Origin: Candidatus Altimarinota bacterium
GTDB taxonomy: Bacteria > Patescibacteriota > Gracilibacteria > UBA4473
Assembly: GCA_023143095.1 (NCBI GenBank)
Contig: JAGLIF010000003.1
Span: forward strand, 1 to 64,000
Direction of reading: 5' to 3'
Length of the DNA: 64,000 bases
The notes beneath the pieces are model-generated. The model ran no database searches. It had not been told where the DNA came from and worked only from the letters and a program-made list of their open reading frames with translations. The position numbers and the translations under genes were made by a program. Every line of letters starts with the position of its first letter. Position 1 is the first letter of the stretch. Positions 1 to 26,177 of the stretch are shown in pieces.

Positions 1-110
1 GGATCTACGATATTTTGCATTCATTGTTCCTATGAAAAAAAGACTGTTTTTTTTATTCAAAACTGGTTTCTTCCTTTTCTCTTTTCGTTTTTGTCAGTGT
101 TTCCTATAAT
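1..110. repeat. Right part of a TIR-bounded short repeat element (MITE-like), cut by window start
   Basis: This stretch resembles the right half of the complete element at 13249-13522. Both share the GGATCTAC-ATATTTTG stretch, the AAAAAAAGACTGTTTTT stretch, a C/T-rich tract and a terminal TTTTGTCAGTGTTTCC. The left part lies outside the window. The right terminal repeat ends just before the murC -10 box, so the element forms the upstream region of murC. Confidence 0.7.
105..110 (+). promoter_or_regulatory. TATAAT -10 box of murC, leaderless start
   Basis: A perfect TATAAT lies 6 nt before the GTG start of murC. The usual 6-8 nt from -10 to transcription start would place +1 at the start codon itself. 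No Shine-Dalgarno sequence could fit. Similar spacing occurs at 1460, 4319, 39102 (minus) and 61409. Confidence 0.6.
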
Positions 111-116
111 CAGTTT

Positions 117-1412
117 GTGGACATTCACTTTATCGGCATTGGAGGCATTGGTATTTCTGCCCTCGCACAATTTTGTAAAAATCGCGGTGACACGATTTCT
201 GGTTCAGAATCACAACAAACTGGTACTTTTGAGTTATTACAAAACCAAGGTATCGAAATAAAAATACCACAACAAGCCAAAAACATCCCACTCAATTGTG
301 ATTTAGTAATTTATACTGAAGCTATTGGAGAAGATAATCCTGAACGAGTGGAAGCTTTGAAACGAAACCTGCCTATCAAAACTTATTTTGAATTTTTAGG
401 AGAAATTTCCAAAGATTTTCACACCATTGCCGTTACAGGAACACATGGAAAAACCACTACTACAGGACTCATAGCTGCTGGATTTAAAACAGCTCACTTT
501 GATGCCACAATCTTTGTCGGATCAAAACTTCAAGAACTCGGTAACGCCAATTTCCATGCAGGGAGTAATGATTTTTTACTCTTGGAAGCGTGTGAATACC
601 GAGCAAACTTTCGATTCTTATATCCAGAGATTGTGATTTTGACAAATGCCGAACTAGACCATGTTGATTTTTATAAAAACGAAGAACATTACATCGAAAC
701 TTTCACTGAGTTTTGTGCAAAAGCCAAAACAGTTATCTACCATAAAGATGACAAAAATGCCCAGATTATTTTGAAAAATTTTACAGGACAAAAAATAGCA
801 GTTGATTCCAATGATCCTAGTTTTAAAACTTCAAAGAAGAAACTTCATTTGTCTGGTGAACACAATCGAGAAAATGCGATACTTGCCTTATCTTGCGCTC
901 AATTGCTTTTCGAAAAAGAAGATGCACAAATGAACCAATTCAAAAAAGGACTAGAAAAATTCTCTGGAGCATGGAGACGACAAGAGTTCTTGGGAGAAAA
1001 AGAAATCAACAACAAAAAAATACAAGTTTTTGATGATTACGGACATCATCCCACAGAAATCATCGCAACCCTGCAGGGTCTAAGAGAAAAATTCCCAAAC
1101 AAAAAAATCGGACTTATTTTTGAACCACATCAATACTCTCGAACCAGAAAGTTTTTTGATGAATTTTTAACAGCACTTGCCCACGCAGACTTTATAGGAA
1201 TCTTTCCAATCTATGCTGCCAGAGATACTCAGGCAGACAAACAATCTGTCTGCATCGACAACTTTTGTGAAAAAAATCCTGCTATTCAAAAAATAGAAAC
1301 TCAAAAAGACGCACAACTTTTCACACAAAAATTAAACGAAAACGATATACTTCTTTTTATGGGAGCGGGAGTAATTGATGTTTTTGCACACGAATTTTTA
1401 AGGAAGAGTTGA
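117..1412 (+). CDS. murC: UDP-N-acetylmuramate--L-alanine ligase (MurC)
   Basis: Cytoplasmic ATP-dependent ligase that adds the first amino acid, L-Ala, to UDP-MurNAc in peptidoglycan synthesis. The N-terminal UDP-binding loop is GIGGIGISALA (residues 7-17). The ATP P-loop is TGTHGKTTTTG (107-117), and DDYGHHPTEI (around 310) is the C-terminal Mur-ligase motif. At 431 aa it is slightly short for MurC (usually 450-490). The start of the protein fits MurC better than Mpl. Translation starts at GTG, 6 nt after a TATAAT box. The last residues LRKS and the TGA stop lie within a copy of the interspersed terminal repeat (1398-1423). Coding strand is A/C-rich, unlike the plus-strand genes at 4-21 kb. 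Confidence 0.92.
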   Translation: MDIHFIGIGGIGISALAQFCKNRGDTISGSESQQTGTFELLQNQGIEIKIPQQAKNIPLNCDLVIYTEAIGEDNPERVEALKRNLPIKTYFEFLGEISKDFHTIAVTGTHGKTTTTGLIAAGFKTAHFDATIFVGSKLQELGNANFHAGSNDFLLLEACEYRANFRFLYPEIVILTNAELDHVDFYKNEEHYIETFTEFCAKAKTVIYHKDDKNAQIILKNFTGQKIAVDSNDPSFKTSKKKLHLSGEHNRENAILALSCAQLLFEKEDAQMNQFKKGLEKFSGAWRRQEFLGEKEINNKKIQVFDDYGHHPTEIIATLQGLREKFPNKKIGLIFEPHQYSRTRKFFDEFLTALAHADFIGIFPIYAARDTQADKQSVCIDNFCEKNPAIQKIETQKDAQLFTQKLNENDILLFMGAGVIDVFAHEFLRKS

Positions 1413-1423
1413 TAAATAAACTC
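1398..1423 (+). repeat. Solo terminal repeat overlapping murC stop
   Basis: The sequence begins TTAAGGAAGAGTTGAT and ends AAATAAACTC, a variant of the 26-bp TIR consensus found at both ends of the element at 13249-13522. The murC stop TGA (1410-1412) is inside it. Confidence 0.7.
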
Positions 1424-1479
1424 ATATTTTTCCATCCTCATTCTAAATTTTAAATCTGCTATAATTAATGCGAAAAAAA

Positions 1480-1719
1480 ATGAACACTTCACGAAAGATT
1501 TCGATGTTTTCGGGGAAAAAGTTAGTACAATTAGCAAAGGAAAAGGACGGGAAAGGACTCAGAAAAGTGCTAAAACAAATCAAGGAGCAACCACAAAAAC
1601 CTCCGAAATCAGAGGAAGAAAGGTCGGACGAACACCTAAAAGAGCTTGGGGTAACGACAACCCCAGTAGACAACTCAGAGTGGATGGCGGCATTCTCAAA
1701 AAAGAAAAAAGTCGATTAA
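1480..1719 (+). CDS. Small basic hypothetical protein
   Basis: A short Lys-rich, soluble protein of 79 aa with no family I recognise. An in-frame ATG exists at 1468, but TATAAT at 1460-1465 would put the transcription start after it, so ATG 1480 (MNTSRK) is preferred as a leaderless or nearly leaderless start. The middle is charged (KEQPQKPPKSEEERSDEH) and probably disordered; the C-terminus is FSKKKKVD. It sits alone between murC and a decayed methyltransferase gene. The promoter and plausible amino-acid composition favour a real gene, but there is no homology support. Confidence 0.5.
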   Translation: MNTSRKISMFSGKKLVQLAKEKDGKGLRKVLKQIKEQPQKPPKSEEERSDEHLKELGVTTTPVDNSEWMAAFSKKKKVD

Positions 1720-1777
1720 AAAACAGAACTCTTTATATCTACAAAAGTTTATTAAATTAAGTAAATAAAATAATAAT

Positions 1778-2251
1778 ATGATAAAGAATAAAAAAATGAC
1801 AATATGGGGTGTGGGACCTCAATTTGCATTCATATCTTGTATTTATACAATTATTATTTTTATTTTGAATCATATTTGGTTTTCGAATTTTCTTATTCCT
1901 TTATCGCATAATTTATCTTTAATTTTTGGAATAATTCTTATTGTTCTAGGTCTACCTATCTTTTTAATTCCCGCATTTACAATTAATAAATATGTTAAAG
2001 AAGGTAAATTAGTCACAAAAGGAATCTATGGATATTTTAGGCATCCCATATATGTTTCGTAGATTATATTTTTTGTTCCAGGTATCGTTTTAATTAAAGG
2101 TTCACTATTGGAATTAACTATCCCTTTTTTTATGTATTTTATTTTTAAAATTTTAATAAAAAACGAAGAAGATTATTTAGAAAATAAATTTGGAAAAAAA
2201 TATTTACAATATAAAAAAAGAGTAGGAACAATTTTTCCAAAATTGTTCTAA
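1778..2251 (+). pseudogene. Isoprenylcysteine carboxyl methyltransferase-family protein, interrupted by in-frame TAG
   Basis: The first 94 codons encode a membrane protein with hydrophobic helices (for example FISCIYTIIIFIL) leading to the family motif GYFRHPIYVS. A TAG stop follows at 2060-2062. The same frame continues for 62 more codons to a TAA at 2251, without any shift. That continuation has the expected C-terminal family pattern: a hydrophobic helix, then KNEEDYLENKFGKKYLQYKK, ending near FP. Together the parts give a full ICMT/PEMT-like methyltransferase of about 157 aa. The simplest reading is a recent nonsense mutation; amber readthrough or a sequencing error are alternatives. Confidence 0.75.
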
Positions 2252-2280
2252 AATAAAAAATTGTCCTTGAATTTTTGTTC

Positions 2281-2395
2281 TTAAGCAAAATATCGTAGAT
2301 CCCGTTTCAAGAACGGGAAGACATTTTTTTATACAGGAAGACAAATCTCATGGATTCCTGCCTACGCAGGAATGAGGAGAGTGGGCAAGCATGAG
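2281..2395. repeat. Inverted fragment of the interspersed repeat, with two hairpin modules
   Basis: It contains GATCCCGTTTCAAGAACGGG (hairpin) and GATTCCTGCCTACGCAGGAA (hairpin), which appear in opposite orientation inside the element at 13249-13522. No clear terminal repeat remains at either end. It lies downstream of lepA and the methyltransferase pseudogene, between convergent transcription units, where the hairpins could act in termination. Confidence 0.65.
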
Positions 2396-2411
2396 GAAAA
2401 GCGGAAACTTT

Positions 2412-4229
2412 TTACTTCTTCATCATCGCAAAGAAAGCTTCTTGAGGAATAGTCACACTCCCAAATTGTTTAAGGCGTTTTTTTCCTTTTTTTTGTTTTT
2501 TTAACAACTTTTTCTTTCGTGAAACATCTCCTCCATACAGTTTTGCAGTTACATCTTTTCGTAGTGCGGAGATAGTTTCTCGTGCGATAATTCGGCTGCC
2601 AATGGACGCCTGAATGGCGATGGCAAATTGGGCTTTAGGGATAATTTCCTTTAGTCTTTTACACCAATTGGTTCCAATGTGATGAGCGTCATCTTTGTGT
2701 ACAATCTGGCTTAGCGCATCAACTGGGTCTCCTGCTACAAGAATATCCATTTTTTGTAAATCGCCTGGACGAAGTCCTATATTTTCATAACTCATGGAAG
2801 CGTATCCTGAGGAGATAGATTTTAGATCATCATAAAAGTCCGTTACAATGGAAGCCAGTGGGATTTCAAAGATGAGTTCTACTCGATTTTCAGTGGTGTA
2901 CTGAAGATTTTTGTGAAGACCTCGTCGATCATTACATAGTTTCATTATCCCTCCCACTTGATCGGAAGGACACAATATGTGAATTTTCATCCAAGGTTCT
3001 CGTATTTCCTCATACAGACCAGCATCAGGAAGCTGTGAAGGATTTGCAATAGTAATAATTTCTCCATTATTTTTTACAATTTCATAGGAAACAGAGGGCG
3101 CTGTAATGAGAATATCAAGATCAAATTCTCGTTCGAGTCGTTCTTGTATAATATCAAGATGAAGAAGTCCCAAAAATCCTACTCGAAAACCGTGTCCCAA
3201 AGCGCCAGAGTGTTCAGGTTCGTATTGCAAAGACGCATCGTTGAGACTTAGTTTCTCCAATGCTTTTCTCAACAAAGGGAAATCGTCTCCATCAATTGGA
3301 AAAATACCAGCATAAACAAAAGGCGTTACCTCTGTGTATCCAGGAAGAGGGGTCGGTGTTTCTGTTTTTTGGTTTTTTGATCTTTTCCAGATAGTTTCTC
3401 CAACTCTTGCATCGATTACATTTTTTAATCCTGTAACAATATACCCCACTTCTCCAGTTTTAAGACTTTGTGTTGGGGAATAGTTTGGATTGAGAAATCC
3501 TACTTCCAGAGCTTCTATTTCTCTACCTGTACGAATGAGTTTGAGTTTGTCGCCTTTATGGATTTCACCAGAAAAAACACGAACGCTGCTCACTACTCCT
3601 CGATAATTATCAAAGGTGGAATCAAAGACGAGTGCCTTTGTTTCATCTGAATCTTTTACTATATCAGCATATTTTTTAAAAATTTCGTTATTTTCTGGTT
3701 CAGGGATTTTTTCGATGATTTTGTCTAACAATTCTTCCACATTAGTTCCGTCTTTAGCTGAAACTGTCAGGATATCTTCAGCTTGAAATCCTAAAACATT
3801 TTCGAGTTCTTCAGCTCTTTTTTCTGGTTCAGAAGCTGGAAGATCAATTTTATTCAGCACAGGAATGATTTCGAGACCATGTTCCATCGCCAAGAAAACA
3901 TTTGCCAATGTTTGTGCTTCAATTCCTTGTGTAGCGTCTACTACCAATATTGCTCCATCACAAGCAGCTAAACTTCGAGACACTTCGTATGAAAAATCAA
4001 CATGACCAGGTGTATCAATCAGATTGAACTGATACCCTTTCCAAGACATTCTCACTGGTTGAAGTTTGATTGTAATTCCTCGTTCTTGTTCAAGTTCCAT
4101 CGTATCGAGCATTTGAGTGTTTTTCATATTTCGTGTATCGATAGTGCCAGTTATTTCCAAAAAACGATCGGCAAGAGTCGATTTTCCGTGATCAATATGG
4201 GCAATAATGCAAAAATTTCTAATTTTCAT
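2412..4229 (-). CDS. lepA: Elongation factor 4 (LepA), ribosome back-translocase GTPase
   Basis: Full-length LepA of 605 aa. The GTPase P-loop region is AHIDHGKSTLADR (10-22), followed by switch II DTPGHVDFSYEV and the guanine-specificity motif NKIDLP. Next come EF-G-like domains II, III and V, and the LepA-specific basic C-terminal domain (VSRKKKLLKKQKKGKKRLKQ). LepA acts on stalled or mistranslocated ribosomes. The coding strand is A-rich, as expected for a lagging-strand gene here. It is transcribed alone and divergently from the first pilin cassette. Confidence 0.96.
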   Translation of the reverse strand: MKIRNFCIIAHIDHGKSTLADRFLEITGTIDTRNMKNTQMLDTMELEQERGITIKLQPVRMSWKGYQFNLIDTPGHVDFSYEVSRSLAACDGAILVVDATQGIEAQTLANVFLAMEHGLEIIPVLNKIDLPASEPEKRAEELENVLGFQAEDILTVSAKDGTNVEELLDKIIEKIPEPENNEIFKKYADIVKDSDETKALVFDSTFDNYRGVVSSVRVFSGEIHKGDKLKLIRTGREIEALEVGFLNPNYSPTQSLKTGEVGYIVTGLKNVIDARVGETIWKRSKNQKTETPTPLPGYTEVTPFVYAGIFPIDGDDFPLLRKALEKLSLNDASLQYEPEHSGALGHGFRVGFLGLLHLDIIQERLEREFDLDILITAPSVSYEIVKNNGEIITIANPSQLPDAGLYEEIREPWMKIHILCPSDQVGGIMKLCNDRRGLHKNLQYTTENRVELIFEIPLASIVTDFYDDLKSISSGYASMSYENIGLRPGDLQKMDILVAGDPVDALSQIVHKDDAHHIGTNWCKRLKEIIPKAQFAIAIQASIGSRIIARETISALRKDVTAKLYGGDVSRKKKLLKKQKKGKKRLKQFGSVTIPQEAFFAMMKK

Positions 4230-4318
4230 TGTAGGAATAAATAGTCTTTTTTTTAATCTTTTAGCTTTTTTTCAAATTTTTTCAAAGGTTTATGGGTTTT
4301 ATTCTTCAAATTTTTCTC

Positions 4319-4324
4319 TATAAT
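4319..4324 (+). promoter_or_regulatory. TATAAT -10 box of the first minor-pilin cassette
   Basis: A perfect TATAAT lies 5 nt before the ATG at 4330 (a second ATG is at 4333). This again predicts a leaderless mRNA for the first gene of a four-gene plus-strand cassette. A TTG start in the same frame at 4324 overlaps the box and is therefore unlikely. Confidence 0.6.
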
Positions 4325-4329
4325 TGAAA

Positions 4330-4953
4330 ATGATGCACAAGATGTCTGGTTTTACGATTTTAGAATTCCTAGTAACTATAGGGCTTATGGCTATCATGGC
4401 AACTATCTCTGCACCCAATATTTCAAGGATGTTAGCAAGATCGAAGTTTGATGGAGAGGTGCAAAAATTTCTGAGTACTATTGCTGATGTAAGAGCAAAT
4501 GCACTTTCCAACAAGAAATGTACAAAATCAGATGGATCAAAGGCATCTTCAGTCTCTTGGGCTGTACGAATAAATAAGACAGCAGCTCCTTTTTCTTATA
4601 GTTTGCATTGTTTTTTGCAGAAGGATTATTTCGATGTACTTAATCCCTTAAAACTCGATAGTGTTAATGTTGTAGTGGGAGATGCAGTTTTTTTCTCTGA
4701 AGAAGTCGTAAAAGATTTTAATCTTTTTTATGATACACCATTACCAATTGTGAGCGGGAATGATGTACTTCTTAATTATTGGTCTGGAATGCCTCAAGTA
4801 ACAATTGTAAATGATCATACTGGAACGCCAGAAAGAAAAGAAGATGTTAGAATTGTTGCGGAAGGGTCTTTTGGAGATATTAAAACAATTTGTGTAAATC
4901 GTATTGCAGGATTTCCTACTTTTAATAAAGATGGAAATGTATGCATAGAATAA
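4330..4953 (+). CDS. Type IV pilin-like minor pseudopilin (GspH/FimT-like)
   Basis: The N-terminus carries a class III prepilin signal, SGFTILEFLVTIGLMAIMA. Gly precedes the mature Phe, Glu is at +5, and a hydrophobic helix follows. A GspH-like segment comes next (RSKFDGEVQKFLSTIADVRA). The C-terminal globular part has three or more Cys. It is expected to be cleaved and methylated by a prepilin peptidase, which is not in this window, and then incorporated at the pilus tip. It is first in a cassette of four pilin-like genes (4330-7540) parallel to the cassette at 42138-44710. ATG 4330 is chosen from the promoter position. Confidence 0.8.
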   Translation: MMHKMSGFTILEFLVTIGLMAIMATISAPNISRMLARSKFDGEVQKFLSTIADVRANALSNKKCTKSDGSKASSVSWAVRINKTAAPFSYSLHCFLQKDYFDVLNPLKLDSVNVVVGDAVFFSEEVVKDFNLFYDTPLPIVSGNDVLLNYWSGMPQVTIVNDHTGTPERKEDVRIVAEGSFGDIKTICVNRIAGFPTFNKDGNVCIE

Positions 4954-4977
4954 TTTATTTAAAATTTATTGTAAAAA

Positions 4978-5649
4978 ATGAAAAAATTTTTTAAACAGTT
5001 TCGGTTTTATTTGTTTAAGCGTTCAGGAATAAGTTTGGTAATTTCCTTTGGAATGATTTTTATTTTGTTTGTAGTTGGAATGGTTGGTTACAAAGCATTG
5101 AATAAAGCTATGGATGCAACAACTAGTATGCAAAATAGAAAAAATGAAATGCCAGATGAGTCTGGAGATTTGGAATTAAATTTTGCTTTTAAAAATGCAG
5201 TGCAATTGTTTTCGTTAGAAATTTCTCAGGCGAGACGAAATGCAAATTTAAATAAAAAATGTAATAGAAGAAATCCATCAATTACTTGGCAGTTTTTTAT
5301 GGAAGGATTTGAGAACAATCATCATACTTTGAAATGTTTTTACAATGATGAGGATTTCTTGGGGGAAGTACAATTTTTGGAACAGGAACTTCCTAGTGAA
5401 GAAGTCATGATTGAAGGTATTTTTGTGAAAAATGGAGTTTTGTTAGATCCAGATGATGATTTGTTGATCACTTTTTATTCTGAGTCACCGAAAACAAAAA
5501 TAGAGTATTTTGATGGAAAGCTTCATGAAGTAGATAATGTTCGCATTGTTTTTAAACAAACTCGTGGACTGGCGAAGAAAATGGCAATTTGTCTCACTAA
5601 CGGAGAAAGTATTCAGACTATTAATTTAGATGGTGATACTTGTGAATAA
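4978..5649 (+). CDS. Minor pilin-like membrane protein
   Basis: This 223-aa protein has a basic N-terminus (FRFYLFKRSG) followed by one hydrophobic helix, ISLVISFGMIFILFVVGMVG, then a soluble domain. The arrangement matches a pilin, but the mature N-terminus reads GISLVISFG and lacks the usual Glu5, as in GspK-type tip pseudopilins and some PilX-like proteins. It ends with a Cys-containing tail (INLDGDTCE) like that of the preceding gene (FNKDGNVCIE), suggesting the two globular domains are related. It is the second gene of the cassette, with 24 nt spacing. Confidence 0.65.
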   Translation: MKKFFKQFRFYLFKRSGISLVISFGMIFILFVVGMVGYKALNKAMDATTSMQNRKNEMPDESGDLELNFAFKNAVQLFSLEISQARRNANLNKKCNRRNPSITWQFFMEGFENNHHTLKCFYNDEDFLGEVQFLEQELPSEEVMIEGIFVKNGVLLDPDDDLLITFYSESPKTKIEYFDGKLHEVDNVRIVFKQTRGLAKKMAICLTNGESIQTINLDGDTCE

Positions 5650-5654
5650 TAAAT

Positions 5655-6392
5655 ATGAAATTCAATAAAAGTTTGAAATCAAGTAAGTGTTCTGGAGAAA
5701 CCATTCTGGAGGTATTGGTGGCTATTGTAATTTTAGGAAGTGTACTCACAGCAACTTTTTCCATTTTAGACAGAGCTCTTAAAACAAATGTAAATATAAA
5801 AAGTCGAGTAATTGCGCTCAATATTGCTAGAGAAGGACTTGAGGGTGTGCGAAACATTCGAGATACTAATTGGCTAAAATATTCAGGAAATAGACGAGAA
5901 AAATGGTTATGTTTGGATAGTATTGATAATTTACCAAGTTCATTGGATGTTTGCGATGGAGCCTCTACAGTTACTATTGAAGATGGTTATTATACAGTTG
6001 ATTTTTTGGACACTTACAAGCGATACTTTTTGGTAGAGGAGGGACCGAGTGATCCAAGTGGAAAAATGGATTTATCAACAACACAAACGGATCAGGCAGA
6101 GTTAAAGTTATACCAAACTCCAGAAAAACGCTATACGCATGCAGAGGAGGATGGAACTGGAACAGATTATGATGCTACATCGTTCTCTCGTCAGATTCAT
6201 ATTGAGATACAAAATCCATATGAAGATGAATCTAGTTTGCCCAGTTTTTGCGATAATGATACAGATGAACCGGATTGTACAACACATAGAGTCAAGGTGA
6301 CTTCGTTTGTGCAGTGGAAAGACGGTGCGGTAGTTTCCTCAGTTACTTTGGAAACTTTCTTGTATGATTTTTATGAGAGGGATGATTATTAG
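5655..6392 (+). CDS. Prepilin-like minor pilin (PilV/GspI-like)
   Basis: The prepilin signal is SGETILEVLVAIVILGSVL, with Gly-Glu at the expected cleavage site and Glu at +5. The segment after the helix, IALNIAREGLEGVRNIRDTN, is characteristic of PilV/GspI-like proteins and recurs in the second cassette protein at 42648. A globular domain with four Cys follows. Length is 245 aa. The start ATG is 5 nt after the previous stop, so the genes are probably co-transcribed. Confidence 0.8.
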   Translation: MKFNKSLKSSKCSGETILEVLVAIVILGSVLTATFSILDRALKTNVNIKSRVIALNIAREGLEGVRNIRDTNWLKYSGNRREKWLCLDSIDNLPSSLDVCDGASTVTIEDGYYTVDFLDTYKRYFLVEEGPSDPSGKMDLSTTQTDQAELKLYQTPEKRYTHAEEDGTGTDYDATSFSRQIHIEIQNPYEDESSLPSFCDNDTDEPDCTTHRVKVTSFVQWKDGAVVSSVTLETFLYDFYERDDY

Positions 6393-6400
6393 TCAATTTA

Positions 6401-7540
6401 ATGAAAAGAATATTGAAAAAAACAAAAATGATAAAACGAGAGATAACTTTCTTTTTGTTCAAAAAATTTTGCCGAGTAGGCAAGTTGTTATTCTTGAATA
6501 AAAATAAGGGATTTTCAATTGTGGAAGCATTGATTGCTATGGGGATTGCGTCAATTGTAATTTCTTCTTCTTTAGGAGTTGTAGGAAATATTTATTTTAG
6601 TCAAAAAAAGGTGCAATTTACGCAGAATTTTTATGCAGAAGCACGGTTTATGATGGAGAGAATTGCACAAATTGCTCAGAATAATACGATAGATTACGAT
6701 AGGTCATTTGAGGTATATGGACCAGATTCTATAGAATGTGCTGATTTTAGTTCAGAGCAGATTCCTGAAGAATATGTGCCATCTCACGACTATGAGAATA
6801 TAGCAGCAAATCGATCTCTTTTTACTTATCCAATTATTTTTTATTGGGATACGAATGAGGATGATATTCAGGATCGAAATTTGGGAGGAATGACTCTAGA
6901 TGGATCCGTAGAAGATCCTTGTGCAGAAGCATGGAATAGTTCAATGACTATCGATGAATTATACCTTATCAATGGTGACCGAACAATTCGAACTGCAATA
7001 AAAAGAAAAGTAACACTTCCTGTGGCTAATTTAGAGGTTGATAATCGTATTGAATTGGAAACTCAACTCGGAGCAGATATCGATGGAGATGATATAGCTG
7101 ATATTTGGGGACCAGTAGATAACAATGATAATGGAACTTTTGAAATTGATGGTATAGAGCAAGATATCGAAGTGTCTTTTAATGATGTTACTGGTTTGTG
7201 TGAATTGACTTACTGGGATACAACTATTGTTTCTGAGGTTTCTTTGTCTGTTTTAGGAGATACCTCTTCCAAAGAGTTTTGTAATAAAGCACATCTTTTT
7301 ACTCCGATTTCACCAAGAGCCATGAATGTTAGAAATCTTTCTTTTCAACCTTCTCCAAACAGAGATCCTTTTTTGAATTTTCGAGTCAAGAGTGCACAGA
7401 TTCATCCACATGTATTTATTTCTACATCTATCAAACTTTTCCAACCTTTGGATTATGGATTTGATGATGATGATAGTATACCAAAAATTTCCTTTCAAAC
7501 ATCGGTAAGTTCAAGAGTTTTTGGAAATAATCGGAAATGA
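6401..7540 (+). CDS. Prepilin-like protein (PilW/GspJ-like) with Asp-rich loops
   Basis: A cytoplasmic leader of about 38 residues precedes the prepilin signal NKGFSIVEALIAMGIASIVI. The FYAEARFMMERIAQIAQ segment after the helix is typical of PilW/GspJ. The 379-aa protein is longer than usual. It contains Asp/Asn-rich stretches (DTNEDDIQDRN and GADIDGDDIADIWGPVDNND) resembling the calcium-binding loops of dockerin, EF-hand or thrombospondin-3 type repeats. That suggests a Ca-stabilised extracellular domain (inference). It is the last gene of the first pilin cassette. Confidence 0.78.
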   Translation: MKRILKKTKMIKREITFFLFKKFCRVGKLLFLNKNKGFSIVEALIAMGIASIVISSSLGVVGNIYFSQKKVQFTQNFYAEARFMMERIAQIAQNNTIDYDRSFEVYGPDSIECADFSSEQIPEEYVPSHDYENIAANRSLFTYPIIFYWDTNEDDIQDRNLGGMTLDGSVEDPCAEAWNSSMTIDELYLINGDRTIRTAIKRKVTLPVANLEVDNRIELETQLGADIDGDDIADIWGPVDNNDNGTFEIDGIEQDIEVSFNDVTGLCELTYWDTTIVSEVSLSVLGDTSSKEFCNKAHLFTPISPRAMNVRNLSFQPSPNRDPFLNFRVKSAQIHPHVFISTSIKLFQPLDYGFDDDDSIPKISFQTSVSSRVFGNNRK

Positions 7541-21058: not shown

Positions 21059-21135
21059 GACTGGGTAGCTCAGCTGGTTAGAGCGTCGGATTCATAACCC
21101 GGAGGTCGGCGGTTCAAGTCCGCTTCCAGTCACCA
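21059..21135 (+). tRNA. tRNA-CAT (elongator Met or Ile2), CCA encoded
   Basis: The acceptor arms GACTGGG and TTCCAGTC pair. The D arm is GCTCAGCTGGTTAGAGC, the anticodon loop TTCATAA (CAT), the T arm GGCGGTTCAAGTCCGC, and CCA is encoded. The 1-72 pair is G-C and the anticodon stem lacks the three G-C pairs of the initiator, so it is not tRNA-fMet (that one is at 55875). Whether C34 is a lysidine site cannot be decided here. Its 3' end is the left border of a genomic island. Confidence 0.93.
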
Positions 21136-21168
21136 AATTTAAAATCCCGTTATGGGATTTTTTATATT
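21120..21168. repeat. Left direct repeat (attL-like) of the tRNA-CAT island
   Basis: This 49-nt stretch contains the last 16 nt of the tRNA plus its terminator hairpin and is identical to 26050-26098. Similarity continues with mismatches for about 75 nt more on both copies, through the shared GAACTTAGGAGACTCTCC. Confidence 0.85.
21142..21163 (+). terminator. Terminator of tRNA-CAT
   Basis: AAATCCC and GGGATTT arms enclose a GTTAT loop, followed by a T-run. It is duplicated exactly at 26072-26093 as part of the island's right repeat. Confidence 0.8.
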
Positions 21169-21444
21169 GTTCTCATTGAGAAGAATTTGAACTTAGGAGA
21201 CTCTCCACCCTCATTCCTGAGAAGACATGGATCAATTTTTTAATACACTAAAATTGTATGGTTACCATAAAATTCATGCTCCCTATGTGGAGCTATTCTT
21301 TAAAATTTACTATTCCAGAAACACATTCCTTCCTCTCTGCTTCTAATTCGTTGGTAGAGTGAATTTCTATTTCCAACATTTGTTCTACACAAAAATCCGT
21401 AATCTTCAGTAAAAACAATTTTCGTTTAGTAATGTGAAAAATAA
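21169..21444. other. Non-coding island left end
   Basis: I see no gene here. The first part continues the divergent extension of the direct repeat, including a degenerate CCCTCATTCCTGAGAAG hairpin module of the interspersed repeat type. The remainder is AT-rich without a supported reading frame. Confidence 0.5.
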
Positions 21445-21741
21445 TTAATTTTGAGATTCTCTGAACTGTTTTAATCTTTCAAGAGTATCACTTCTCCTGC
21501 TTTTATAGACTGATTTATTTCACTCTAAACATTGTAATTGTTTTTCTTTTAATTGATTGAAACATTGTAGATATTCATCGGTATGTTTGATGAAAACTTC
21601 TTTGCAATATTTAGCTTCGTTTTCATAGGCAATCTGACAGAAAGCAATGTTCTGTTATCTTAAATATAAAACGAGTGCTCCAATCCCAAGCAAGAGAAAA
21701 ACTACTACAATCGTAATTTCGGAAATGACGGATTTTTTCAT
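21445..21741 (-). pseudogene. Decayed small membrane/secreted protein gene
   Basis: From ATG at 21741 (minus) the frame encodes MKKSVISEIT then a clear membrane helix, IVVVFLLLGIGALVLYL, and reaches TAA at codon 29. The same frame continues with coding-like sequence (EAKYCKEVFIKHTDEYLQCF) to a TGA at codon 74, then to a final TAA at codon 99. The hydrophobic start plus charged Cys-containing tail in a single frame suggests a bitopic protein that lost function through two nonsense mutations. The intact 28-codon N-terminus alone could still be a micro-protein. Confidence 0.45.
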
Positions 21742-22008
21742 CAAAAAAGTGGCAACTTTCGTTGCACTTTACTCGACAATCCCTAAGGACAACCGTTAAG
21801 ATAAAAAATCGCCCCATCTTTATGGTTGCCTTCAAAAGACACAAAATAATGCCTAAGGAAAAATGGTAACGAGTAAAGTACTCTCGAATAATAAGAGATT
21901 GAACTTTTTTATAAAGATACAAACCTCGAACAGACAAGACTCTGAAAGCTATCTTGTAATAATTATGAAAGTGTGGGAGATTGTTTATACTTTACCCAAA
22001 AAATATTC

Positions 22009-23556
22009 ATGTCCAAAAAATCTAAAAGTAATGAGAGTGGTCTTGATGACCATAAACAACACAAAAAAGAATTGAAACCGCCCTTCTTGTCTCATGATTT
22101 CAATATGAAAACATCATCATGGTTTGATGAAAGACTTCCTGAAATGCTTTGGACAGTATTGGTTATTGGAAATATAGAAAGAGATAAAGCATTAAAATTT
22201 TTTAGGTATGTTGGAAAGTTTGTAGAAAAAAACAAAGAGTGTTCTACCGTTACCATTACGGGTATTTCCAACTTCTCAGACACAAAAAGAAAAGAGTTTA
22301 TAAAGTATATAACTGAATTTTCGAAAGAAATAACTAACATTCTCAGTAATCTATTACTATTTCCCAAATTGCCAAATTTTAATGAATGGAAAATACATCT
22401 AGTTAAGCCCGAATCTGAAGATGGTTGGCACAAAGTAGCAAAAAGTGTTGATAAAACCTTTTGGCACCAATCGGAAGAGGCAACTGATTGTCGTTGGATA
22501 AGCATTTTATGTGAAATTTTGGGAGAAAAAATTAAATTTTCAAAAGATATAAAAGGAATTGAAAAAACAATGCGTGGGATATTTGAATACCCGGACTATG
22601 GAGATATGAGACATGTACGCCCATCGATTAGGTCAATGGAAATGAGTTTAACAATTCAAAAAAATGGCAAATCAGTATGGGCAAAATATTTTTGGAAGTA
22701 CTGTTTTAAAAATACCGATTGTGTCCCAGAAGAGGTTATAAACAAAAAAATACAAAAACGACAGAAAAAATTATTCGAAGAAATGCACGAAACAAGAAAA
22801 CACAACTTTGATGAAACTGTTGAATTAAGAAATAAACTTATTAACCATTTTTTTAAGACATCAGAAGTTTCTGCCATAGACTCCCGTCACGAAGGAGCTT
22901 TTGGAATAACTTTGTATGCACTATCTTTATATATTGAAATAATTTTCTATAAAACAGCTCTATCAATTACGGGAAGGTTGGGGCTAAGAGCTCTTGTTGA
23001 AACATATATAACTTTTACCTATCTGCTGAACAAAGAAAAATCAGAATCTAAAATTTGGGATGATTATCGTAGTTATGGAACTGGACAAATAAAATTAATT
23101 TATCTTAAATTACAAGAAATGAAAGAAGTTCCTAATTGCACTAACTTGGATGAAATGAACTTTCTTGCAAACGAAGATAAATGGGTTGAGTTTGTTCCTA
23201 TAAACTTAGGTCATTGGGATTCTGCCAATCTAAGAAAAATGAGTGAGTCCGTCGGACTAAAGGATATTTATGATAAATTTTATAACTATACCTCTGGTTT
23301 TATGCATGGCAATTGGGGAGCGGTAAGGGAGTCTGTGTATCAAACATGTGTAAACCCGCTACATCGTCGTCATAGGATACCAACTCACGACTTGCCCCTC
23401 ATGCCGAGTACAACAGACGATGCAAGAGAAATCATGAATAGTATTTTTGATTGTTTGGAAAAAGCATACCCTAAATTCAAAAAGAGATTCACAAGTCCAA
23501 AAAAGGGAAAGATACCTTTTCCCGTTCGCAAAAACATTCTTTCTCTTGAAAAGTAG
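22009..23556 (+). CDS. Island protein of unknown function, DUF5677-like C-terminal half
   Basis: A 515-aa protein. The first 260 residues have no family I recognise and contain several Trp/His-rich stretches (DGWHKVAKSVDKTFWHQSEE). The C-terminal half is helical. GRLGLRALVETYITFTYLLN, then WDDYRSYGTGQ, and later YNYTSGFMHGNWGAVRES resemble DUF5677/HEPN-like helical proteins found in phage-defence and abortive-infection loci (tentative). A GTG at 21973 is in frame, but ATG 22009 (MSKKSKSNES) is the more natural start. It is the first gene of the island cassette, 136 bp before the next. Confidence 0.6.
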   Translation: MSKKSKSNESGLDDHKQHKKELKPPFLSHDFNMKTSSWFDERLPEMLWTVLVIGNIERDKALKFFRYVGKFVEKNKECSTVTITGISNFSDTKRKEFIKYITEFSKEITNILSNLLLFPKLPNFNEWKIHLVKPESEDGWHKVAKSVDKTFWHQSEEATDCRWISILCEILGEKIKFSKDIKGIEKTMRGIFEYPDYGDMRHVRPSIRSMEMSLTIQKNGKSVWAKYFWKYCFKNTDCVPEEVINKKIQKRQKKLFEEMHETRKHNFDETVELRNKLINHFFKTSEVSAIDSRHEGAFGITLYALSLYIEIIFYKTALSITGRLGLRALVETYITFTYLLNKEKSESKIWDDYRSYGTGQIKLIYLKLQEMKEVPNCTNLDEMNFLANEDKWVEFVPINLGHWDSANLRKMSESVGLKDIYDKFYNYTSGFMHGNWGAVRESVYQTCVNPLHRRHRIPTHDLPLMPSTTDDAREIMNSIFDCLEKAYPKFKKRFTSPKKGKIPFPVRKNILSLEK

Positions 23557-23692
23557 GATGAAATGACAAAGAAGGAGCAAGATGAATATGTTAAGAAGTA
23601 TGTTCTAAAGAAGAAGTAATAAACAAAATAGATAGTATTGTGAACTGCCTTGTATTAAATTGTAAATTGGGTTAACTCCTTTATACTTAGTG

Positions 23693-24310
23693 ATGTCTAA
23701 CTTTGGAAAAATGATATTAGAATTTGTACCCATAAAAGAAGGATTGTGGGATATGTTTAATAATTTTCTTAGAAAAAAAGTGAAAGAAAAAACTATGGTG
23801 TTACAAGGAATCACGAATAAAACCCAAATTCATGAAGGAAGGGGTTATTCTTTTGATGTTTCAGGAGTAAAGCAAGACATGAAAATGAAAGTAGCTTCTG
23901 GAAGTTTTCAAATAAAAAAAGAAGAACAATCAAACCTATCTCTTGCAGAGATAACAAAAAGAATTGAAGGAGTTGCCGAAGAGATGGCGGGACAAATGGA
24001 AAGAGGTCTTATAGAAGTGCTTAACAATACCACAGGAATCACTTCCGAAGCAAATGCCAAACCTTTAAACCATGAAACTCTTTTAGAACACATGGAAAAA
24101 ATAGATATTGGTTTTTATGATGATAACCCTATGAAACCGCATGAATTATCACTGATTACAGCTCCTGGAATGGAAAAGGAGTTACAGCGACAATGGGATA
24201 ACATGTCTGAGGAAGCACAAGGCAAAATCGAACAAAGGCGAAAAATAATTTATGCTAAAAAATATGAAGAATACTCTACTCGAGAACAGCGTAGAAAATT
24301 GGTTGATTAA
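23693..24310 (+). CDS. Island protein of unknown function, overlaps nuclease-like gene
   Basis: A 205-aa soluble protein, not recognised. The N-terminus is basic, the middle is an amphipathic Glu/Lys-rich helix region (LAEITKRIEGVAEEMAGQME) and the C-terminus is highly charged (EQRRKIIYAKKYEEYSTREQ). Its last 59 nt overlap the start of the next gene in another frame, so translation of the two is probably coupled and the products may work together, for example as regulator or partner of the nuclease-like protein. GTG 23690 directly precedes ATG 23693. Confidence 0.6.
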   Translation: MSNFGKMILEFVPIKEGLWDMFNNFLRKKVKEKTMVLQGITNKTQIHEGRGYSFDVSGVKQDMKMKVASGSFQIKKEEQSNLSLAEITKRIEGVAEEMAGQMERGLIEVLNNTTGITSEANAKPLNHETLLEHMEKIDIGFYDDNPMKPHELSLITAPGMEKELQRQWDNMSEEAQGKIEQRRKIIYAKKYEEYSTREQRRKLVD

Positions 24311-25880
24311 TTCTAATGAATTAGGATATCAATCTGCTTTTTGTCAGCTACTTATTGCTGACGGTTATGCTATCCACCAGGTAAGAACTCATCAGGGCTT
24401 TGAAGAAGGAAAGGATATTATCGCTACAGATAAAAATGGGGATGTACATGCTTTTCAGCTTAAAGGTGGTGATATAACCCTAACAGAGTGGCGAAAAAGC
24501 ATAATGGTTCAAATAGAGGAATTAATTTTTATTCCTGTAAAGCATGTCTCAATTCCTACGGGTTCAGTACATACTTCCTACTTGATAACAAATGGATTTT
24601 TTAATGACCATGTAAGTAAAAGCATAGAAGACTTCAATCAAAACAAATGGAAGAAGCATCCTTTATTAGCATGGGATATTGGAATTTTAAGACAAAAATT
24701 TCGAGAATTCGCTAAAGGGTTTCTTCCTGCTGACATAAGCGAAACTGCTCAGAAACTACTTTGGGATTTGTATTCTGATAGTGGAAGGGGGGATGTAAAT
24801 GCAACACATTTGAATACATTTTTCGAGGAAGTAATACCAATCAAACAAAGCAAAAACAAAAGCAATTTACGAAGGCAAATTGGAATATTGGTACTATATT
24901 CATCCTATATTAGTCAAAAATATAGAGAATGTGAAAACTGGGTTTCAATAGTTAAAATACTTACAATAACAAGCAGTTATATTTTGCTTTTAGTAGAGAA
25001 ATTTTCCTTAGAAGAAAAATATTGGAAAGCCTCTTTTGACTTATTGCAAAATGAAATTTCTGATTCGGGAGAAATGCTTTCTATTGAAATTCAGTCCGAT
25101 TCTTATCCTGATAAACTTTATCAAGATTTAACCGATGGAGAATTAGGGAAATTCAGACTGCATTCAGCAGTCGAAACAGTCTTAGCTATAAAAATTATGC
25201 AATTCATGAGACAAGAAAGCTCATGGAAGGATTTAGATTTTCTAAAATTAAAAGAAAAATTTAATCATTTTCTATACCCTCTAGGAGAGGGGCAGATATT
25301 CAGTTTTTTTCTTTGTTTTTGGTATGTTTTCTTAGAAACATCCAAATTGCATTTTGAATTATTATTGCAAGGAATGTTATTAATAATTAAAAGCAATGGT
25401 CGACTATCTCCTGAAGATTCAATCGGGATTCCAAATCCCTACTATGATGTAGAGCAATTATTAAAGAATAAGTATTTAAAATCTGAGGAAATTGAAGAAT
25501 CGTTCATAGGAAAATCTTACTTAATGGGAAGTTTTATAACCTTACTCGTTCTTCATAAACAAAGAACGATTTTAGAAGAATCGTGGCGAGATATTACATA
25601 TATCTCCCAAAATAAATTTGTTCCAAAAAATCTCTGGCAATATTTTCAATGGCGAAGTCCTGAAGGAAAACTAGTACAACAAATTCCGAAACAAACTGAG
25701 CAATCTTGGAAAGAATTACAAAAAGATATTTTTAAACCGAAAAAAGCAGATTTACCTAAAAGCATAAAGAAACGATTTGAATTTATTCCTATGTTTTTAT
25801 TGTTTTATCCACAAAGGATTTGTCCCGAAATAATTTTCTTATTAGAAGAGAAATTAAAACAATTAAAAAACCCCCAATAA
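24252..25880 (+). CDS. Large island protein with N-terminal PD-(D/E)XK-like nuclease motif
   Basis: A 542-aa protein. Residues 25-75 look like a restriction-endonuclease-type domain: the helix YQSAFCQLLIADGYAIHQV, then EEGKDIIATD (candidate metal ligand D55), then the strand HAFQLKGGD containing Q69-x-K71. The remaining 460 or so residues are helical and rich in aromatic residues (FSFFLCFWYVFLETSKLHFE) with no family I recognise. They might sense a trigger or bind nucleic acid. Its start overlaps the upstream gene by 59 nt. Defence function is inferred from nuclease motif, unknown partners and island location only. Confidence 0.65.
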   Translation: MLKNMKNTLLENSVENWLINSNELGYQSAFCQLLIADGYAIHQVRTHQGFEEGKDIIATDKNGDVHAFQLKGGDITLTEWRKSIMVQIEELIFIPVKHVSIPTGSVHTSYLITNGFFNDHVSKSIEDFNQNKWKKHPLLAWDIGILRQKFREFAKGFLPADISETAQKLLWDLYSDSGRGDVNATHLNTFFEEVIPIKQSKNKSNLRRQIGILVLYSSYISQKYRECENWVSIVKILTITSSYILLLVEKFSLEEKYWKASFDLLQNEISDSGEMLSIEIQSDSYPDKLYQDLTDGELGKFRLHSAVETVLAIKIMQFMRQESSWKDLDFLKLKEKFNHFLYPLGEGQIFSFFLCFWYVFLETSKLHFELLLQGMLLIIKSNGRLSPEDSIGIPNPYYDVEQLLKNKYLKSEEIEESFIGKSYLMGSFITLLVLHKQRTILEESWRDITYISQNKFVPKNLWQYFQWRSPEGKLVQQIPKQTEQSWKELQKDIFKPKKADLPKSIKKRFEFIPMFLLFYPQRICPEIIFLLEEKLKQLKNPQ

Positions 25881-26049: not shown

Positions 26050-26098
26050 CCGCTTCCAGTCACCAAATTTAAAATCCCGTTATGGGATTTTTTATATT
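26050..26098. repeat. Right direct repeat (attR-like) of the tRNA-CAT island
   Basis: An exact 49-nt copy of 21120-21168: tRNA 3' end, CCA and terminator. There is no tRNA body upstream, so it is not a tRNA gene. Confidence 0.85.
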
Positions 26099-26177
26099 AT
26101 TTTCATTGGAAAAAATTTGAACTTAGGAGACTCTCCGCCCTCATCCCTGCGAAGGCAGGGATCAATTTTATTTCTGA

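Follow-up and report, generated by a model that had tools for sequence, protein, structure and literature searches.

A candidate defence island at a tRNA-Met gene of a Gracilibacteria genome: an orphan DitA homologue beside an undescribed two-gene module with a predicted Mrr-like nuclease domain

Introduction

The described systems to which the present locus can be compared are Mrr, Aditi, and small two-gene modules such as Hachiman. Mrr proteins are type IV restriction enzymes; that of Escherichia coli has a winged-helix domain at its N-terminus and works on its own. Aditi consists of DitA and DitB, and on Clostridioides and Streptococcus plasmids the DitA gene is followed by the DitB gene with a short overlap. 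Aditi has been classed as uncharacterised (PMC12926258), and our literature search found no paper joining DUF5677, a domain present in the DitA homologue studied here, with defence.

We analyzed 64,000 nucleotides of a Candidatus Altimarinota genome (contig JAGLIF010000003.1, positions 1 to 64,000), hereafter the window. A first-pass annotation of the sequence had proposed that three genes at 22009-25880 form one defence-type operon inside a tRNA island, that no known family accounts for all three, and that the third begins with a PD-(D/E)XK-type nuclease motif. The three same-strand open reading frames are present as proposed (Table 1), and the undescribed part of the locus is a two-gene module, not a three-gene system.

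Results

An island between direct repeats at tRNA-Met

The source genome is of the Patescibacteria type and measures about 1.2 Mb. The 40 main open reading frames of the window use TAA, TAG and TGA as stops, which indicates the standard bacterial code.

Table 1. Features of the island and its borders (positions in the window).
Feature	Position	Strand	Source or remark
tRNA-Met (CAT), presumed integration site, still intact	21059..21135	+	ARAGORN, Rfam
Left 120-nt direct repeat, att-like: last 16 nt of tRNA-Met, terminator hairpin, flank	21120..21239	+	
Gene 1: DitA (Aditi) homologue with DUF5677 domain	22009..23556	+	PADLOC, Pfam
Gene 2: unnamed partner protein of about 205 aa	23693..24310	+	family found only next to gene 3 homologues
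Gene 3: predicted Mrr-like nuclease domain (about residues 1-150) and about 390 unrecognised residues	24264..25880	+	
Gene 2/gene 3 overlap, 47 nt	24264..24310	+	
Right 120-nt direct repeat, att-like, 5' of comM	26050..26169	+	

The placement in a tRNA island was borne out: a direct repeat, one copy of which overlaps the 3' end of the tRNA-Met gene, recurs 4930 nt downstream. The two copies are 92% identical, with a perfect match over the first 49 nt, and the genome contains no third near-full copy. Over its final 40 nt or so, the repeat resembles a short multi-copy element of this genome, so that it is informative mainly in its first 49 nt. Direct repeats starting in tRNA-Met are the trace expected from site-specific integration into a tRNA gene, and the best explanation of the stretch between them is an island of about 4.9 kb, integrated at tRNA-Met and containing two defence modules. 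Its G+C content (0.32) is close to that of the window (0.34), and none of the open reading frames between the two repeats encodes an integrase or a recombinase. In the relatives examined, no empty site was found and comM is not beside the corresponding tRNA-Met; the missing clean empty site is explained by rearrangement of both the comM neighbours and the tRNA-Met flanks.

The part of the island before DitA (21240-21972, about 730 nt) yielded neither a convincing gene nor a match in Rfam; it may contain remnants of integration machinery. A hairpin at 21278-21293 differs in sequence from a short hairpin-forming, REP-like element (like CCCTCATCCCTGCGAAGGCAGGGATC), which lies at 26143-26162 and recurs in partial form at dozens of places in the genome.

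Gene 1 is a DitA homologue without DitB

The open reading frame of gene 1 starts at GTG 21973 or ATG 22009. Its product matches the PADLOC DitA profile PDLC03826 (E 1.9e-82, 275.7 bits) over residues 21-501 of 527, nearly its whole length. The DUF5677-like character noticed in the first pass was confirmed by Pfam (PF18928, E 3.7e-14). Judged by these profiles, gene 1 encodes the DitA protein of Aditi, a defence system already described, so that the first-pass remark on the lack of a known family is wrong for gene 1.

The DitB profile PDLC03827 has no match in genes 2 and 3 (PADLOC), nor anywhere in the island or the whole source genome at E<=1. A reading of gene 2 or gene 3 as a diverged DitB was thus ruled out by PADLOC, hhalign and the whole-genome search. 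A tiny open reading frame (MTKKEQDEYVKKYVLKKK) lies at 23563-23620, between DitA and gene 2, and is possibly the remnant of a lost partner.

DitA is rare within the phylum. Two other Patescibacteria bear it, G062 and a Doudnabacteria genome, and a profile search found no DitB in either; weak DitA fragments in two further genomes (G131 and G139) were left out of the analysis. In G062 and the Doudnabacteria genome, the genes downstream of DitA are unrelated, and neither DitB nor genes 2 and 3 are present there. Their contigs terminate just upstream of DitA or inside it, which leaves room for a possible partner upstream. Within the island of the window, DitA probably stands as a module of its own, separate from genes 2-3.

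Genes 2 and 3 form an overlapping pair that recurs elsewhere

Gene 2 starts at GTG 23690 or ATG 23693. The longer open reading frame of gene 3 begins at ATG 24252 (542 aa), from which the 59-nt overlap given in the first pass was counted; the starts of the homologues favour ATG 24264 (538 aa), so that the likely overlap is 47 nt. The proposed coupling of the two genes gained support, as the same overlapping pair, gene 2 followed by gene 3, was found in four further loci: the genomes G443 and G757, which are Patescibacteria of a class other than that of the source, an element in genome G220, and a Rhodococcus qingshengii plasmid. The overlap measures 38 nt in the first three and 35 nt in Rhodococcus. 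Over all loci, five in number with the window included, gene 2 encodes about 200 aa and gene 3 about 480-540 aa.

A search with the gene 3 protein of the window retrieved the G443 homologue over its full length (E 3.8e-47, 30% identity); directly before it lies a gene 2 homologue of 201 aa with the same RKLVD end. The G757 and G220 members were recovered by profile search, the G220 pair measuring 203 and 481 aa. The Rhodococcus pair (195 and 511 aa) is annotated 'restriction endonuclease'. Identities of the gene 3 homologues to the window protein range from 15 to 31%, and the two most distant members resemble it mainly in the N-terminal domain. Gene 2 is more diverged than gene 3. For Rhodococcus and G220, the gene 2 links are weak in sequence, with E-values that refer to a set of five sequences, and the case for homology leans on position, length, overlap and a conserved C-terminal tail. 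Between G443 and G757, dN is 0.05 for gene 3 and 0.09 for gene 2, with dN/dS at most about 0.04 for both and synonymous sites saturated. Low dN at saturated synonymous sites indicates that both genes encode proteins under strong purifying selection.

The distribution of the pair is patchy: it occurs in 2 of the 79 genomes of the family of G443 and, in other genome samples, in 1 of 145 and in a few of 380, 295 and 269. DitA adjoins it in the window and in none of the four other loci. Genes 2 and 3 recur together, and all three genes were found together nowhere else; a single conserved operon of three genes is contradicted, since the pair recurs without DitA and the DitA relatives examined occur without the pair. 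Genes 2-3 are an independent, unnamed and undescribed two-gene module present in at least two phyla. No match to genes 2 and 3 that would point to an origin in phages or viruses appeared among phage records or viral contigs, and solved structures included no significant relative.

A partial gene 3 match in genome G440 (E 0.009, with a stop inside) was taken as chance. The G220 pair lies on a 6.8-kb contig (L086, contig 56, positions 1-6780) that is legible only with TGA read as glycine (code 25). The G220 genome is placed in the same class as the source genome, whose genes do use TGA stops, and this contig could be a contaminant or could stem from an element of a recoded host of the Gracilibacteria/SR1 type.

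The N-terminus of gene 3 resembles Mrr

The residues named in the first pass, D55 and Q69-x-K71, are exact in the 542-aa numbering and correspond to D51, Q65 and K67 in the 538-aa protein. Across the five gene 3 sequences, with identities down to 15-17%, the motifs E-x-G-K-D-x-x-A and F-Q-x-K do not vary. The Rhodococcus member passes the Pfam model Mrr_cat (PF04471; 22.8 bits, curated cutoff 21), the one convincing family model for gene 3, reached in this one homologue; the window protein has no match to it and the other members fall below the cutoff. A profile built from 12 Mrr proteins was compared by hhalign with the N-terminal profile of the gene 3 family, and the score of 22.2 was reached by none of 300 column shuffles (11.8 +/- 2.3, maximum 20.0), the reversed profile scoring 11.2. 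After realignment over 100 columns, the F..LL..GY motif, the catalytic D, QxK and the strand carrying (T/S)-x-x-F (ITxxxF) are in register with Mrr. The probability given by hhalign itself is just 7%, so that this match counts as support and not as proof.

Other approaches were less informative. The single sequence of E. coli Mrr did not match the gene 3 family profile. Single-sequence AlphaFold models of the window proteins were poor (pLDDT 41 and 44); the gene 3 model (pLDDT 41) has a helix-strand-strand-strand order compatible with a nuclease fold, and a Foldseek search with this poor model gave nothing significant, its top match, RnlA (E 0.04), being disregarded. Gene 2 and the remainder of gene 3, about 390 residues, matched no PADLOC, Pfam or NCBIfam family. 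Altogether, the invariant motif, the Mrr_cat match and the profile comparison support the assignment of the gene 3 N-terminus to a PD-(D/E)XK-type, Mrr-like nuclease domain, as first suggested.

Neighbours of the pair

The defence-type context proposed in the first pass is seen in the window, with DitA, and recognised defence or candidate-defence genes stand beside the pair in three of the four other loci (G443, Rhodococcus and G220), a small and unrandomised sample. In G443, a complete BstXI-type restriction-modification pair, methylase and endonuclease, directly adjoins genes 2-3 (L013, 5435-7500; Pfam RE_BstXI, E 2.6e-101), and a recombinase-like gene is also nearby. The Rhodococcus plasmid carries a HamB-like helicase and a DEDDh exonuclease next to the pair. 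The G220 element contains a trypsin-like protease resembling PDC-S45, a RES protein, a large serine recombinase and a gp3-like packaging protein. The neighbours in G757 are transposases and other accessory genes, with no recognised defence system.

Discussion

We consider it likely that the locus is a small integrated defence island composed of an orphan DitA and an undescribed two-gene module, namely an Mrr-type nuclease and its partner. The genomic context suggests a defence role for genes 2-3, and the anti-phage activity of the genes of the island is putative. In the mechanism that we consider most likely, overlapping translation would couple the synthesis of the gene 2 and gene 3 products and keep it in a fixed ratio, and partner and nuclease would form a complex held inactive before infection. 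The C-terminal region of gene 3, the small partner, or both might sense a signal of infection and restrain the nuclease. Once activated, the Mrr-type domain could cut phage DNA, as a form of restriction, or host DNA, as a form of abortive infection. The fuller proposal, in which the pair is a cross-phylum two-gene defence family made of an Mrr-type nuclease with a C-terminal sensor and a co-translated partner, and works here with the orphan DitA, is in our opinion unlikely as a whole.

The three genes could also be a single system, an Aditi variant in which genes 2 and 3 take the place of DitB and DitA works with a nuclease effector. That they share a strand and one island, with 134 nt between DitA and the pair, in a source genome devoid of DitB, would agree with such a variant. 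However, the trio occurs at no other locus, the pair does without an adjoining DitA in G443, G757, G220 and Rhodococcus, DitA of G062 and of the Doudnabacteria genome has neither genes 2 and 3 nor DitB downstream, and hhalign detected no similarity of genes 2 and 3 to DitB; we therefore regard a three-gene system as rather improbable.

The other alternatives concern the function of the pair itself. A small gene upstream of, and overlapping, a larger nuclease gene, carried by mobile elements and a plasmid, recalls a toxin-antitoxin pair whose nuclease toxin and small upstream antitoxin would mainly maintain the mobile element. But the nuclease toxins of known pairs are mostly short, whereas this one reaches an unusual size of 480-540 aa and includes a long additional region, and the defence-gene neighbours favour defence, though the two roles overlap; such a function thus appears unlikely. 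It is more doubtful still that gene 3 is inactive as a nuclease or that the pair serves the housekeeping of mobile elements (integration, packaging or mobilisation). The position of the G220 pair between the packaging protein and the serine recombinase would suit this explanation, as would a gene 3 without a confident fold, but the catalytic residues are invariant, one member reaches Mrr_cat, and the Rhodococcus and G443 pairs sit among restriction and helicase genes. The integrated island with two separate defence modules is the reading that we retain.

Should the pair prove active, it would represent a further defence system, one that PADLOC 2.0 lacks. The pair is common to Patescibacteria, a recoded mobile element and Actinomycetota, and at about 2.2 kb it is small enough for direct testing. 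Also, DitA without DitB raises the question of whether DitA can function by itself. Patescibacteria are often considered poor in classical defences, and a compact integrated defence island in one of them would thus be useful evidence.

Compared with known systems, gene 1 fits the DitA profile nearly end to end; in canonical Aditi loci DitB lies directly downstream of DitA, overlapping or adjoining it, whereas the window has none. With Mrr (PF04471), the gene 3 N-terminus shares the order and spacing of the motifs, D...QxK, and the downstream strand motif. Unlike in Mrr, its nuclease domain is N-terminal, is fused to about 390 unrecognised residues and comes with an obligate small overlapping partner. 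Finally, genes 2-3 match no PADLOC model and the pair is without helicase or ATPase, unlike Hachiman (HamA-HamB) and the PADLOC candidates (PDC), with which it nevertheless shares the format of a small two-gene module, a nuclease-like part and a location in defence islands.
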